Source of the DNA: Globomyces pollinis-pini
Lineage: Eukaryota > Chytridiomycota > Chytridiomycetes > Rhizophydiales > Globomycetaceae
Direction of reading: 5' to 3'
Length of the DNA stretch: 30,381 nt
Assembly: GCA_025399215.1 (NCBI GenBank)
Contig: MU621296.1
Coordinates: 1 to 30,381 of the forward strand
Part shown: positions 6,686 through 29,866 of the stretch, piece after piece
Position numbering within the stretch: position 1 is the first letter of the stretch
Layout of the letters: the number at the start of each line of letters is the position of its first letter
Program-made: the position numbers and the translations under genes
Notes under the pieces: generated by a model
Told to the model about the DNA's origin: nothing
What the model saw: only the letters and a program-made list of their open reading frames with translations
The model's database searches: none

Positions 6686-8817
6686 TCATCTACCACATAA
6701 AAAAGAATGTGTTCTCCAAATTCTATTCAAAATGTCGATGCCTTTAGTTGTTTCAGCACGGTCATACAATGCAAACAGCTCCAAATCATGAATATCTTCT
6801 AAAAATACGGATTTTTGTTGACTAGGAACACTTGAATCGATAATGGACTGTTTTAAATACACCAACAAACACAGTAGTTCACCAACAAAAAGATTATCTT
6901 TCGTCTGATGAATATTCAATAACCGCTCTATGTCACTACCAATAAATTAAGTTCATTTACCGTAAACTGTATCTAACACGTTCAACTTGCTTCGATTTTC
7001 CGTAAAGTTGTTTGTCCACTAGAAGTTTCTTACCATAATTTACCAAGCCGTATGATATTAAAATTGTAGGAATAATCGCCAAAAAAGCAAAATTTAATTC
7101 ATTGGATCGTAAAAGCTGATCTAATGCTGACATTACCAGAGCCCCATCCACTTTGACTTTTTGAATCTGAATAAGTAACGATCGAATTAACGATCCATTG
7201 ACTAAGGCGCTAACAGGCTTCTTGATATCTGATTCTAATACGATGAGCATTTGCAATATACCATATTCTTTCAAAACCGTACTCAAATCACCAGTGCGAA
7301 CTTGCTCGAGCACTACTGACGCCTGAATCTCGGGGTTATAATCATGAGCAAAAGATACAACCATCCGTTCTAAAGACTAGACATTATCCAACAAAATCAA
7401 TACCTCCAAGTCTGAAGCCAGAGAATTAGTTCCCAATACTGCCAAACGGGCCTCTTTATGACGTATGGTTCGTAAAATATCCCGCACAGGCTTTATCATC
7501 CATTCATTTACAAGTCCATGAACGGTTTCAAATGCCTTAACTGAAAAGCTGTGCAACGATTGACTAATTGTCTCGAAAGTAAACACTTTGTATAAATAAA
7601 AAGAAGATATCACTCCAACTGTTACTGGAAACCATGTTCTTGCCAGCAAGCTGGGCCTAGAGTATTTTCGCAAAAATGAGTTGAACATTGGAGTTGAACC
7701 ATCTAAAGTACATAGCATGAATTTGATTCTTGTAATAGAAGCATTAATAAATTCTCTCGGTTTTTGATTCAAACCTATATGTTATTTAAGGCCTAATAAT
7801 TACTGTCAGACTTGTTTGTATGGAGTGAAGAAATTTTTATACTTTGATAGTTTTCATGGAGTTTGGAAAGAGTCTCCAGAATCATTTCCAATTCCACCAT
7901 TTCATTATGAATTGAATTTTGTAAATACTCTACTAGTTTTGATAGAGATTCATTCCATGCATCTTGAGATGTATCCACATCATACAAGGTAAGAAAGTCG
8001 TTTTGGATCTCTTGACCACTCTTTTCGTTATAATTACTACAATTTTTGGCATTGGGGAATATATTTTTATGATTAGGGAGAGATAGCGTTCCAAGACAAT
8101 GTGCTTGTATTTGATTGATTTTTTTTAGAACTTTACAGCGCTGTTGCATAGCATTTAAAGCGTTATGATATGGGTCTAATGGCTTTAAATGCAAAATTGA
8201 TCTAATTGATGATGTTTCTGGTTCTTTCACTTGCAGTAAATTTGCATACCAAGGCATGATGTCAGAATGGTTTTTGAAAGACTTGTAGCAATTTTCTGGA
8301 AGCTGCTGAATTATGAACTTCCACACTAATAAACGGGAAGCTTTATTTTCACTCCAATAGCTTAATTGTTCGGAAACGAGGGGCGATTGTCCTATCAAGG
8401 TAGAGATGGATTTGTACTTCAATACCGCGATTGATTTATATAGAATTACCAAATGAGCTATCTGCACATTTAAGTAGACGATTTTTTCATACCGTTGGCT
8501 CTGATGATAAAATCTCTACAGACTCATCCAAATTCAACTGTCCTTTTTTAAAGTCATTTGAGACCATCAAGTTCCACAGTTCATTCAAAGGTTGAGTTGC
8601 ATGTTCATTTGAAAATTCTTCAATGTAGTCTATTTTCATTGACGATGGATTTATGTCTGCAATGGGATGAAATAGAACTATACAGTTAATAAAACAACAA
8701 AATCCTTATACCTGCCAATTGACGCTGTGTTTGTATCCTCGTTGCATTTCTGTTCAGCTGAAATGCATTATCAATAGCAGATATTGAAGACTGAAGCAAT
8801 TCTTCCTCAAATCCCAT
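6686..8817 (-). CDS. NCA2: NCA2 family mitochondrial membrane protein
   Basis: In yeast, Nca2 is a mitochondrial protein needed for normal expression of the ATP synthase subunit 6/8 transcript. Exons: 8817-8712, 8677-8493, 8461-7804, 7774-7404, 7376-6961, 6935-6686, giving 661 aa. The five introns are 34, 31, 29, 27 and 25 nt. Family marks are the membrane segment WFPVTVGVISSFYLYKVF (about 365-381), DLE|SLERMV across the 27-nt intron, the QIQKVKVDG motif (510-518) and a second hydrophobic segment (536-554). The C-terminus has DIERLL and FLEDIHDLE. Intron 1 has a second in-frame acceptor at 8657 (55 nt) that would remove seven residues; I prefer 34 nt because it fits the size class. The gene is divergent from the channel gene across 307 bases. 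Confidence 0.88.
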
Positions 8818-9124: not shown

Positions 9125-11121
9125 ATGTCTCGACATGCTTCAAGGTTATATCATGGCGCTCAAAGGGAGAAATCAGAATTATCAAGCGTAAAATCAAATC
9201 AGATGAAAGCTGAAAAGATCAAAGTGGAACCAATCGCCAAACATACCTGGTATTGATTTTCTTCTATTCATGTTAGGTACGAAGAACTGAACTTCAAACT
9301 TGATGTTTTAATCCCTTTAAATGAAGATCGTGAGTTATTAGTACCTTTAGATTCATATCTGCAACAAGTTCACTACGGCAGAAATGCGAAATGGAGAATA
9401 GTTCGAAATCAAAACTACAATCTTCCTCCATACTTATCCGAGAGTATCCCTTTGGAAGATCGATATGATGTCCATGTAGAGAAGAAGACTTTTTTTGGCC
9501 CGTTGGAATTGAATTCACCATTTTTAAAAAAATGGGATCGATTGGCATTAATTCTTCTACTCTACACAGCTGTATTTACTCCTTACCAAACTGCGTAAGG
9601 AAAGCATTTAAATAATGTTGTAGGTATATAAATAGCAATCATTTGGAGATTGATCTCTTGTTTTGCATGGATATATCAGTAGATTTGATATTCTTGTATG
9701 ATATTTTCATTCAGATGCGTACACCTTTCAGGGATGCGACAACTGGAAAACTCATTTTGGATGTGAAAACAATTTCAATATCCTACTTAAGTTCTTGGTT
9801 CCCCATTGACATTTTGTCGACATTACCTTTCGATTTAATAGCCGAATTATTTCCAAAATCAGCAGATGAATCTGCAACAAAGGGAAACTTGAAAATTGTT
9901 CGTTTGATTAGACTTACTAGGTTATTAAAGCTCTTACGTGTATTTCGAGCATCCAGAAAGTTAAAACAATTAAAAATCGCATCCGGTTTACGTTATGGTT
10001 CAATTCAATTGCTCCAGGTAAAACTGAAATATTTCTAATAACTCAGATTATTATAATCACCCTATTTTTGGTACATTGGTTTGGATGTGGATATGGAATT
10101 GTATCTTCGTTGGAGGAATATCCGCCTGGTTGGATTGTGACCTATCCTATTGCCAATAATTATACTACCTTTACTGGGGCTGAGAAATATGTCGCATCTT
10201 TATATTGGAGTGCCGGTGTATTTTCTTTAGTAGGAATATCGAAGTCTGATCTGTCACCTGCAAATACAAGAGAATACTTGTATTCGATTTTAACGTACAT
10301 TATAGCGTATCTATATGCTGTGTATTGCATTGCATTACTTTCTGCCGTAACCAGTTTAACAGGGGAAGTAGCTCGTAAGCAAGAGATTTTGGTGGATGGT
10401 TACCTGAAAATGTTTGATGATTTACGATTAGATTCCAGGCTGAAATATACAGTACTCTTAATACATTTCAATACTCACACGATAGGTTTATCATCATTTG
10501 AATGATCATTTTGCATCTTTGGCAAATGCCAAGCAAACTGAAATGTTACACCAGCTTCCTAAACAACTGCATTGTTTTATTTCAATGGAGATATATGTAG
10601 AATTTGTATTGATGATACCATTTTTAGAGCCATTTATTGATTTGCAACCTAATATGATTCAAGAAATTTGCCAAGGTATTGAAAAGCGATTAATAGCAAA
10701 CAACAATATGCTGTTTACGGAAGGATTTGATGGTATCTATTATTTGGAGGAAGGAATTGTGGCGATGGATGGAGTAGTTTATCCCAGTGGATCTATTATT
10801 GGTCTAACAATTCTTCGAGAAAATATTAAAAGTCAAGAATGCAGAGCAATAACTGATTGTAAATTGAACTTTTTACCACGAAAGTTTTTGATTGAACTAT
10901 TCGAGAGGTATCCAAAGGTTAGATATTACTGTAAACGATGGACTCAATGGCAAGTTTTAAGAGATTATATCTTAACTTACTCATCATTATACTACACAGC
11001 TGCTCGCAGAGGTGCTCTGATGAGTCCACCTCTTTTATCAAAAAGGCCATGTATGGAGGATGAAGAGGATGATGATATTGATGTTGCAGTTTTGGACCAT
11101 ATTGAAGAAATGGGATTTTGA
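9125..11121 (+). CDS. Cyclic-nucleotide-gated/HCN-type six-helix cation channel
   Basis: Exons: 9125-9249, 9277-9594, 9624-10017, 10047-10451, 10486-11121; introns 27, 29, 29 and 34 nt; 625 aa. S1 lies near 130-147 (LILLLYTAVFTPYQ) and S2 near 157-180. The S4 voltage sensor RLIRLTRLLKLLRVFR has positive residues at 241, 244, 247, 250, 253 and 256, every third position. The pore loop follows S5 (YVASLYWSAGVFS), but the filter reads LVGIS (340-344), not the potassium signature GYG. A C-linker and a cyclic-nucleotide-binding-like domain follow (about 440-570) but lack a clear FGE and PRxA phosphate cassette, so ligand binding is doubtful. The acidic tail is EDEEDDDID. An alternative in-frame acceptor at 9635 would drop four residues. 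A TMEM218-like ciliary gene starts 108 bases downstream, so a flagellar or zoospore role is possible (inference). Confidence 0.88.
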
Positions 11122-22415: not shown

Positions 22416-23730
22416 ATGGCACACCTATTTAAACATAATCATTTTTGTCCCCTATTTATCAACATGGAACCTGCAAAAGATTCAACTAGTAACACTGTAG
22501 TGGTGGATGTGGATGAAGAAAGGCAACAAGTTCCTCATGCACCTGTTCGCGAATTGGACAAAGGTGAATCAATGATTAAAGTAAATGCTTCCCATAAAGC
22601 AAAACGACTTGGACATTACCAGTATCTTTTGGTTCCTCTAATTCTCTAGTTTTGACGAATTCAAATGGAGAGGCTCGGTACTGCCAAGAGTTCTAGGTCC
22701 TATTCTTTTCATGACTCTTTGGAGTGCCTTTTGGACTGTTTTGATTAAGTTGAATATTGCCGCCAGCCTTGCAATTGATACTACTCTTATTGCTATCATT
22801 TCTACTGTATTGGGTCTCCTTCTCGTTTTTAGAACAAATACTGCTTATGACAGGTACTTGTATAGAAAAATTAAACTATTAGATTTTGGGAAGCAAGACG
22901 ATTATGGGGAAACTTGGATACAAATATCCGAACTTTGGCTAGGTTCACTTGGATAGGAGTCAAACACCAAAACAAACAAGACATTTCTGATAAACTCGGT
23001 GCTATCAATCTCCTCCTCGCTTTCCCAATTGCCACCAAGCACTACTTGAGACAAGAACATGGTTATCACTATGAAGATTTGTACAGCCTTTTAGCTCACA
23101 TTCCTGAATTCCAACCTGCTAATTATATTGGAGAAGATGAAAATGATAATGTTCCATTACAAATTACTTATCATATGGCTGCTTATGTAGATCAATGCAG
23201 ACGTAAAGGTAATCAAATTTCTTTATCTTATTCCTAAGGTATATACATCTATTTAGACTGATATAAGATATTTTGGATGTGCCATCTACTACAGGAATGT
23301 ACAATGCTATCAATGCATTAACCGATATTATCTCTAATTTTGAACGTATCCGAACAGCGCCGGTTCCTGTTGCATGTAAGCATATTGTAACTTAAAAGCA
23401 GACACCATTCATCTTAAACAAACTATCATTCTTTACATCCTCACTCTTCCCTTCCAACTGGCTCTTCGTATGGGCTGGGCCACCATCCCAGTCATCTCCA
23501 TTGCCGCTTTCATTCTCTTGGGTATCGAAGCCATTGGTCGTGAAATTGAAGATCCATTTGGATATGATGTTAATGATTTGGATCAAGAAGGGTTCTGTGC
23601 GAAATTGAAACGGGAATTGGATGTTATTTCAGAACGACCATTAGATATTGATACAAAATGGAGTAAACCTGTTGATATTGAACAACCTTCCCTTCTTAGA
23701 TCTGTTACCAAACGTTACGAACAACAATAA
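22416..23730 (+). CDS. Bestrophin-like (UPF0187) anion channel
   Basis: Exons: 22416-22621, 22650-22853, 22883-23208, 23268-23375, 23402-23730; introns 28, 29, 59 and 26 nt; 390 aa. Two hydrophobic segments follow FDEFKWRGSVLPRVLGP: about 83-105 and 107-129. The motif RTNTAYDRFWEARRLW (130-145) is the hallmark of the bestrophin/UPF0187 family. PVPVAYTIHLKQTIILYILT and a hydrophobic pair with IPVISIAAFILLGIEAIG match the later helices, ending in the family's EDPFGYDVNDL, the calcium-clasp-like region of bestrophins. Such proteins are pentameric chloride/bicarbonate channels; the membrane is unknown. The 59-nt intron parses as two abutting introns. An internal in-frame ATG at 22464 is an alternative start. 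Confidence 0.92.
23209..23267 (+). other. Two abutting micro-introns in the bestrophin-like gene
   Basis: The interval that must be removed to join AAA G|AT (RRK-D-ILDVP) is 59 nt. It splits at a single CTAAG|GTATAT junction into GT...AG units of 30 nt (23209-23238) and 29 nt (23239-23267), both of modal size. Retaining the second unit gives a stop after six codons. Confidence 0.6.
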
Positions 23731-28729: not shown

Positions 28730-29866
28730 TTATTTATTGGCAGTGTCTTTCTTTTTTTTACCTGTCTGTCCATCAGATTTTTTGCGTTTGGTGGGAAATG
28801 GTGGTGGGGTGACTACAACTTCACTGGTTGGAACGGGGGTATTGACCTATTCAAATTAACACAACTGCGATACCTAAAAATGGTTAACGTTCCATAAAGG
28901 AATTTATACAAATTAAAATGTACAAAAAGAAATGTATCCGAAATAATGTAAAACATACCCGTGAAGCATAACTTTGAGAATAATCTGTTCTAACAGGTTT
29001 TTCAGGTTCAAGTTTCGATTTAACAAAAGAATCAACAATCAATCTATCAATTTGATTTTTAAAATTCAATGCTAAATGTTGTTGTTGTAAATCCTTGATC
29101 AGCTCGCTCAACCAATTCTTTTCGTGATTCTTGAATTGCAGGTTCATCTGTTACCCATCTATAGCCTTGAACAGGATGAAAACGACTATTGTCTTTTCCA
29201 ACTTCAAATGCTTTGGTCAAAAAAAATGTCGATGTTAGCTAGAATGTTTCATTAATTGTATAAATTACCACTCTGTTTGTAAGAAGGGTTGATAAAGAAG
29301 GCGATTGGTAAATTGTGCCTTCAACAATGTAATATATTGCTACCAATTCCGCTAAATGGTAAGGTATATCAAAGAATTCAATACTTTTTTGAGGAGAGTA
29401 ACGTTGATGTTTACGTATAATGAAATACGAAGGTTGATAAGTGAAATACCTATTGATTAGTACCAGCATAACCAATCACCTTTTTCTCAGATCTTTCATT
29501 CACATACCTACAATCAAATCAAGAAAAGTACCTAAAAAATAGTTAAATCCACATCAAAATTACCTAATATATCAGAGTTATTTGAGTATACCATAAATCA
29601 TACTCGAATCCCACCATTTTTCTAAATAATTAAAATCTAATAATATACGTATGATCCAATAAATTAGCTTCTAAAAGATTAAATCTAGCCTGCATTTTAA
29701 TCTGTTCATTTATACAAGAAGTATCATAAAATTGTGATTGTGAGAAGTAATCTAGAACGTTATATTCATGTAAACCATGCTATAAATTAAAACCATTTTG
29801 ATTCATTACAGCTTGCATGAATGCAGTGTCTTTAAACGATACATTCAACAATTCATCTTCTTCCAT
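28730..29866 (-). CDS. MED6: Mediator subunit MED6
   Basis: MED6 is a conserved head-module subunit of Mediator, which links activators to RNA polymerase II. Exons: 29866-29810, 29779-29649, 29621-29592, 29449-29269, 29238-29155, 29129-28959, 28846-28730; 256 aa. Intervening lengths are 30, 27, 142, 30, 25 and 112 nt. Family motifs in order: VSFKDTAFMQ, VLDYFSQSQFYD, KMVGFEYDLW, SYFIIRKHQRYSP, AIYYIVEGTIYQSPSL, TKAFEV and RFHPVQGYRW. The C-terminal tail is Pro-rich then basic (TPPPFPTKRKKSDG, GKKKKD), as in other fungi. The 30-nt exon 29621-29592 is required for GFEY. Unlike most genes here, two of its intervals are long and both carry AG|GT junctions. Head-to-tail with the P5B gene. Confidence 0.93.
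28847..28958 (-). other. 112-nt intron of MED6 with one internal AG|GT junction
   Basis: Between SYASR and VNTPVP the removed interval splits at TTTTTAG|GTATCG into 85 nt (28958-28874) and 27 nt (28873-28847). The first part has no earlier AG, so it cannot be divided further. Retaining the 27-nt part would give a stop in the current frame. Confidence 0.5.
29450..29591 (-). other. Array of five abutting micro-introns in MED6
   Basis: Joining ...DLTG-type exon end TTA TG to G TAT TTC ACT (reading DLWYFTYQPSYF) demands removal of 142 nt. The interval divides without remainder at four AG|GT junctions into units 29591-29564 (28 nt), 29563-29532 (32), 29531-29508 (24), 29507-29480 (28) and 29479-29450 (30). 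Every unit starts GTA or GTG and ends AG; the last has TACTAAT just before its acceptor. None of the partial retention products I tested keeps an open frame across the join. Confidence 0.65.

Follow-up and report, generated by a model that had tools for sequence, protein, structure and literature searches.

Candidate tandem arrays of micro-introns with zero-length exons in MED6 and other genes of the chytrid Globomyces pollinis-pini

How does the chytrid Globomyces pollinis-pini (Chytridiomycota, Rhizophydiales) take an interval of 142 nucleotides (nt) out of its gene MED6, when its single introns have a median length of only 28 nt? The DNA analyzed here, hereafter the window, is a stretch of 30,381 nt that makes up the whole of contig C207 in an 18.55-Mb genome of 459 contigs. 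MED6 lies on the minus strand of the window, where an exon at 29621-29592 is followed by the 142-nt gap (29591-29450) and then by an exon at 29449-29385. The gap splits at four AG|GT junctions into pieces of 28, 32, 24, 28, and 30 nt. A first-pass annotation of the letters had reported these coordinates, lengths and junctions, all of which were reproduced exactly, and had called 142 nt far from the local norm, which agrees with the 1st to 99th percentile range of 23-36 nt for single introns (n = 487, each flanked on either side by 60 nt or more of exon). We propose, with a probability of roughly 0.78, that U2-type micro-introns with zero-length exons make up the interval as a tandem array, whose units are in-place duplicates and can each be excised; excision unit by unit is what their anatomy would suggest. 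The features of the locus are listed below in the order of transcription, with the strength of donors and acceptors given as percentiles of the single introns.

29780..29809, minus strand: single MED6 intron of 30 nt (gene-finder decoding and deposited protein)
29622..29648, minus strand: preceding MED6 intron, single, 27 nt (gene-finder decoding and deposited protein)
29592..29621, minus strand: MED6 exon directly upstream of the array, ending ...GAT TTA TG (homology to solved MED6 chains, decoding and deposited protein)
29564..29591, minus strand: putative array unit 1, 28 nt, GTATAC...TTAG, donor at the 30th and acceptor at the 40th percentile
29532..29563, minus strand: putative array unit 2, 32 nt, GTAATT...TTAG, donor at the 96th and acceptor at the 87th percentile
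29508..29531, minus strand: putative array unit 3, 24 nt, GTACTT...GTAG, donor at the 51st and acceptor at the 46th percentile
29480..29507, minus strand: putative array unit 4, 28 nt, GTATGT...AAAG, donor at the 72nd percentile, weak acceptor at the 0th (rounded)
29450..29479, minus strand: putative array unit 5, 30 nt, GTGATT...ATAG, with a TACTAAT branch-like motif, weak donor at the 2nd percentile, acceptor at the 64th
29385..29449, minus strand: MED6 exon directly downstream of the array, starting G TAT TTC ACT... (decoding, solved MED6 chains and deposited protein)
29352..29384, minus strand: next MED6 intron, single, 33 nt (decoding and deposited protein P0241; the strict decoder reads through it)

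Genes were found with a home-made generalized hidden Markov model trained on the same genome and applied to a sample of 280 kb, which consisted of the window and 25 further genome pieces, some letters being N. A first decoding with a flat length model was too noisy to be used: long introns were spread evenly as background, and the genes were few and very long. The strict decoder, which scored intron-side splice bases only, ignored those on the exon side and accepted no exon shorter than 24 nt, set the ends of the MED6 gap at 29592 and 29449 at both penalties tried. P0241, the deposited MED6 protein of G. pollinis-pini, aligns at 99% identity with 91% of the MED6 sequence obtained by splicing the window and reads FEYDLW-YFTYQPSYF across the array junction, where both fetched Boothiomyces orthologues read YDLWYFTYQPSYF. 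P0241, the two orthologues and the solved MED6 chains are continuous over the junction, with a difference of at most one residue. Judged from these comparisons, exactly 142 nt of MED6 must be absent from the protein, and the removal that the first-pass annotation had deemed necessary is thus supported by the decoder ends, P0241 and the orthologues alike.

The expectation of about half an AGGT in such an interval was also sound: dinucleotide shuffles contained 0.52 AGGT on average, and only 25 of 60,000 contained four or more. Exact tiling, i.e., division of a gap of 45-300 nt into GT..AG units of 20-40 nt each without remainder, was seen in none of the 60,000 shuffles. Among the 142-nt stretches of the sample that start with GT and end with AG, 1 of 1,460 tiles, and the MED6 interval itself belongs to the 1,460.

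The MED6 case is not unique, and the sequence comparisons place it in a genome-wide class. In the sample, the strict decoder left 43 gaps of 45-300 nt, 10 of which tile exactly, vs. 0.74 expected from shuffles; with another setting of the decoder, 10 of 55 gaps tiled (0.76 expected). When micro-exons were allowed, zero-length exons were found 47 times, compared to 2-10 times for each length from 1 to 10 nt. This excess persisted when exon-side bases were ignored (36 vs. 5-11) and under rising intron penalties (24 vs. 2-7, 22 vs. 1-5, and 15 vs. 0-3). Of 11 other four-letter motifs of equal composition used in place of the junction, nine gave 0-2 tilings, and the two that overlap the real motif gave seven (GGTA) and five (TAGG). 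Genome-wide, the pattern TAGGTA-N16-32-TAGGTA-N16-32-TAGGTA has 105 matches, vs. 13 for its mirror image; a looser pattern of three AGGTA is less specific (304 vs. 110 matches). Outside the window, the readable sequence (about 236 kb) has seven tiled gaps; after subtraction of those due to chance, a rough extrapolation suggests that the genome probably holds several hundred arrays. The window has a second one:

23209..23267, plus strand: two-unit array (30 + 29 nt) in a bestrophin-like gene, the Pfam match Bestrophin_2 spanning the junction

Two further two-unit candidates of the window, at 1515-1575 and 9595-9648 (plus strand), appeared in the loosest gene-finder run and are absent from the strict run. 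A tiled 63-nt gap at 6588-6526 (minus strand) has a second donor that ranks at the 0th percentile (rounded) of single introns, and it may join two genes; it was therefore excluded from the Pfam, junction and flank analyses.

Some of these arrays interrupt conserved domains. In seven of the eight sample arrays tested, MED6 being tested separately, a Pfam match spans the array (SEN1, Pkinase, VPS11, bestrophin, M48, KAP, and MutS_II); the eighth, with three units, had no Pfam match. Twenty additional loci were fetched as a deliberately biased set, chosen for several overlapping pattern matches or visible repetition. The decoder without micro-exons left a tiled gap in 10 of them, which in four (L030, L040, L046, and L047) is only part of the array later set by hand. 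The hand-set exon boundaries were taken from the decoder allowing zero-length exons; four loci (L032, L033, L037, and L043) were assigned none, and L040 is ambiguous. With these exon ends, the longest array has 12 units (365 nt) and lies between VKIT and DFG of a MARK-like kinase, followed by one of 10 units (285 nt) in a PhyH gene and by others of 8, 7, 6, 5, 4, and 3 units. A Pfam match spans the array position in 9 of the 14 fetched-locus proteins tested (UQ_con, ATG22, FYVE, Usp, which was below cut-off, Pkinase, PhyH, Ras, Mito_carr, and Pex2_Pex12) and does not cross it in the other five (L031, L034, L035, L039, and L045), two of which have the array at the very edge of the match. The alignment of the kinase with MARK3 is gapless at the twelve-unit array, and that of the Ran protein with solved Ran is gapless over a three-unit array near the N-terminus (FKLVL|VG).

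The units resemble complete introns. In the nine sample arrays, which were found independently of the pattern, A stands at position +3 of 16 of the 18 internal junctions, vs. 33% of all 1,577 AGGT, and T stands at position -3 of 11, vs. 25% of all AGGT, while G occurs there in none. A YTRAY motif is found in the branch window of 63% of 27 sample units, 53% of 159 pattern units and 56% of the 487 single introns, compared to 20-22% of shuffles. The pattern units have a median length of 29 nt and a 1st to 99th percentile range of 24-36 nt, though the pattern allowed 22-38 nt. Donors and acceptors of 32 units from 11 arrays are both far above background, and the acceptors do not differ from those of single introns (p = 0.20). 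The GT donor, branch motif, AG acceptor and species-range length of U2-type introns are thus all present, weakly so at the acceptor of MED6 unit 4 and the donor of unit 5. A U2 small nuclear RNA-like sequence is present in the genome, with one mismatch to the search pattern; for U6, an Rfam search was empty, as were its controls, and a sequence pattern was unmatched, which does not imply absence. An Rfam search of the window gave no match.

The relatedness of the units bears on their origin. In a set of 61 arrays (159 units) drawn from 100 of the 105 pattern matches, 27 of 100 adjacent unit pairs are more similar than the 99th percentile of comparisons between arrays; they fall in 16 arrays, two of which contain exact copies, and adjacent pairs of one array share units and are thus not independent. 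When the 487 single introns and the 159 pattern units were compared at a length difference of at most 4 nt, sample arrays excluded, similarity was above 0.35 in 20 of 123 comparisons within arrays and in 23 of 152,298 between loci, where the best value was 0.48. Because similarity is found within arrays and hardly between loci, the copies appear to stay in place, with no sign of transposition. A downstream exon beginning with GT follows 11 of 24 arrays, vs. 11% of the 487 single introns (p = 4e-5; in the pattern-free sample, 5 of 9, p = 0.002). An upstream exon ending with AG precedes 12 of 24, vs. 27% (p = 0.017; 5 of 9 in the sample alone, p = 0.07). At least one of the two is found in 18 of 24 arrays, vs. 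36% of single introns (p = 0.0002), and both in five of 24, vs. 2%; it should be noted that 15 of the 24 loci were selected by the pattern, which could favor GT after the array. A frame of the type AG...AG or GT...GT around an intron would permit its exact duplication by slippage or microhomology, and arrays formed in this way would therefore break precisely at AG|GT. Arrays thus probably grow by tandem duplication of whole introns. The tandem multiplication suggested by the first-pass annotation is accordingly backed for the genome-wide class, by near-identical neighbors and by AG/GT repeats at the flanks, and not within MED6 itself.

A separate three-unit array at G000 C11:4001-4080 (L019; 29, 26, and 24 nt), not one of the 10 tiled gaps, lies just before a Dopey-like coding stretch. 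Its last two units are nearly identical, which looks like a recent tandem duplication.

In the mechanism that we envisage, a whole GT...AG unit would be duplicated in place by slippage, unequal exchange or microhomology repair, aided by the short AG/GT repeats at the unit ends. The duplicates would then diverge under selection that keeps every unit spliceable, and the spliceosome would take out the units by intron definition, in any order. Serial or recursive removal, as put forward by the first-pass annotation, fits the units because each has its own donor, branch-like motif and acceptor; that removal is in fact stepwise is a prediction from the same signals. Any excision order, or the joining of an earlier donor to a later acceptor, would yield the identical mRNA, because at each AG|GT the donor comes to stand immediately after an exon end or an acceptor. 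We somewhat favor the broader proposition that chytrid genes contain "intron satellites," i.e., tandem arrays in which autonomous micro-introns, up to at least 12 of them, follow one another with zero-length exons, arise by in-place duplication, are held under unit-wise selection and are removed by order-free recursive splicing.

Several observations weigh against this interpretation. The fourth junction of MED6 is weak at both of its sides: relative to the 487 single introns, the end of unit 4 (GAGAAAAAG) ranks at the 0th percentile (rounded), and GTGATT, the unit 5 donor, ranks at the 2nd. The junction may be weak or unused, in which case units 4 and 5 may leave together. Because of this weakness, four excisions (28, 32, 24, and 58 nt) are as plausible in MED6 as five. 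There is no evident similarity among the MED6 units, and MED6 is not the best example of the class. No similarity above the 99th percentile was found between the listed adjacent units of 45 of the 61 arrays; for these arrays and for MED6, a duplication origin is therefore extrapolated. The 12- and 10-unit arrays depend on hand-set ends, the unbiased decoder having given part of the first and no tiling of the second. The donors of the 32 units are slightly weaker on average than those of single introns (p = 0.018). Finally, the mRNA would be no different if the whole interval left at once, and this genome does have longer single introns.

One-step removal, in which the first donor would be joined to the last acceptor and the internal AG|GT would be functionless relics of duplication, is on balance unlikely. 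It gains from the longer introns: the Pfam scan covered 24 of the 33 non-tiling gaps, and eight of these lie inside Pfam matches (50, 62, 63, 74, 77, 78, and 84 nt, and marginally 115 nt), the families around those of 50-84 nt being DUF155, DEAD_2, SNF5, the aconitase family, enoyl-CoA hydratase, Clp protease, and KAP. Those of 50-84 nt also rule out the notion that introns above 40 nt cannot be spliced here, which would have favored removal unit by unit. In fission yeast, two gained introns are made up of 24-nt repeats in tandem that have proto-splice sites, and for one of them an expressed sequence tag (EST) excises a longer segment than annotated, as described in PMC3629103. The units, however, many of them diverged from their neighbors, have kept donor, branch-like and acceptor signals as well as the lengths of single introns, where unused units would be expected to decay. 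Moreover, all three gaps above 120 nt that were scanned and have domain or orthologue support (124, 138, and 142 nt) tile, five non-tiling gaps of at least 120 nt lying outside the scan.

Three of the longer introns deserve mention for their anatomy. The 77-nt intron in the enoyl-CoA hydratase-like gene of the window (12702-12626, minus strand) has no internal AG|GT. The 63-nt intron of the SNF5-like gene (L014; G000 C6, about 7382-7445) has AG-TT-GTA in its middle and a TTGTAT direct repeat flanking its first part, which gives it a stwintron-like look. AG-TT-GTA is likewise found in the middle of the 50-nt intron of the DUF155 gene (L019; C11, about 7102-7152, reverse strand).

Quite unlikely is the insertion of introns into introns, by nested or stwintron-like insertion, reverse splicing, or transposition of introners into AG|GT sites, which the first-pass annotation had offered as its second possibility. 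Insertion at proto-splice sites would also give the exon AG before 12 of the 24 arrays and the exon GT after 11. It does not account well for neighbors that are identical at the same locus, for the near absence of close relatives at other loci in the compared set, or for the tiled arrays, in which no unit breaks the splice signal of another and the junctions fall exactly between complete units; it is not supported. That part of the MED6 interval is exonic, as micro-exons rather than one removed block, is very improbable: such micro-exons, 1-30 nt long, do turn up at many sites in the decoding, but the deposited MED6, the Boothiomyces orthologues and the solved chains leave room for at most one residue. 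Chance AGGT in one odd intron is hardly credible, for although two-unit tilings alone have a probability of about 0.1 each, no shuffle of the MED6 interval tiled and the genome-wide excess holds over both shuffles and the mirror control.

Some observations concern the remainder of MED6 and its relatives. A possible two-unit array (24 + 21 nt) lies at 29913-29869 (minus strand), just upstream of the start codon of MED6 at 29866 and perhaps in its 5' untranslated region; it was found only in the loosest gene-finder run. At the C-terminal end, from 29154 to about 29059 (minus strand), the deposited models and the gene finder disagree, the last introns being tentative. The deposited MED6 of the sister strain Globomyces sp. 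JEL0801 (P0254, HDV02_001264) misses the middle of the protein and runs into an intron. A P-type ATPase of the neighboring gene is 95% identical to its JEL0801 homologue over 72% of its length, the differences being mostly one nine-residue gap and the end of the match.

The consequences of such arrays, whose hosts include conserved genes such as Ran and MED6, would be both practical and mechanistic. They may account for failed gene models, of which P0254 may be an example. If the interpretation is correct, introns would be gained through the arrays on an ongoing basis, with the protein unchanged, and the arrays would offer a natural series of substrates in which the number of successive excisions at a single position ranges from 1 to 12. 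They would test intron definition where neighboring donor and acceptor touch, whether the order of excision matters, and how whole introns multiply without transposition.

No description of whole-intron arrays with zero-length exons was found in the openly licensed literature, among the matches listed and as judged from titles and the starts of abstracts. Splicing through zero-length exons is known from long animal introns. The ratchet points of Drosophila are described as lying predominantly in long introns and as needing a cryptic exon at the ratchet point (PMC8605326, citing Burnette 2005, Duff 2015, and Joseph 2018). Like them, the Globomyces arrays have juxtaposed acceptors and donors, at four junctions in MED6 and at 18 in the nine sample arrays (16 of the 18 with GTA), an apparent zero-nucleotide exon, and a stepwise removal, predicted here, that would be traceless in the mRNA. 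Unlike them, the arrays measure 53-365 nt (24 arrays) rather than being long introns, and recursive splicing would proceed in steps of 24-36 nt, below 40 nt and up to 12 in succession, with presumably little room for a cryptic exon.

The stwintrons of ascomycetes likewise involve several U2 introns at one position of a fungal gene, which are removed by consecutive reactions. In a stwintron, however, a donor, branch or acceptor element of the external intron is interrupted by the internal one, which has to be spliced out before it (PMC7138796), whereas the Globomyces units abut between complete signals, the MED6 junctions being exact AG|GT, and their anatomy imposes no order of removal.

That introns can be gained by tandem duplication is accepted, and in the cases described exonic segments or an intron with exon ends are duplicated (PMC4974935, PMC3629103, PMC2395259); for the fission yeast intron of 24-nt repeats, the EST leaves the true splicing open (PMC3629103). 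The Globomyces arrays share with the model of Rogers 1989, with SPOG_01682/SOCG_00815 of Schizosaccharomyces, with CNN00420 of Cryptococcus and with the potato RdRp gene a local duplication, proto-splice sites of the AGGT or AGGC type and repeats that serve as units. An AGGT-type repeat is found at the presumed duplication ends of 18 of 24 arrays, and homologous neighbors are found in 16 of 61 arrays and are not visible in MED6. They differ from the described gains in that the duplicated unit would be the intron alone, such that copies build up into an array with no effect on the protein. Introners and introner-like elements also multiply within a genome, and similar introns are then dispersed among genes; the Globomyces copies remain next to their parent, and similarity between loci is nearly lacking. 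Thus, zero-length-exon splicing and intron gain by tandem duplication are both known already, and it is the scale and form in which they appear to be combined in G. pollinis-pini that are unusual.
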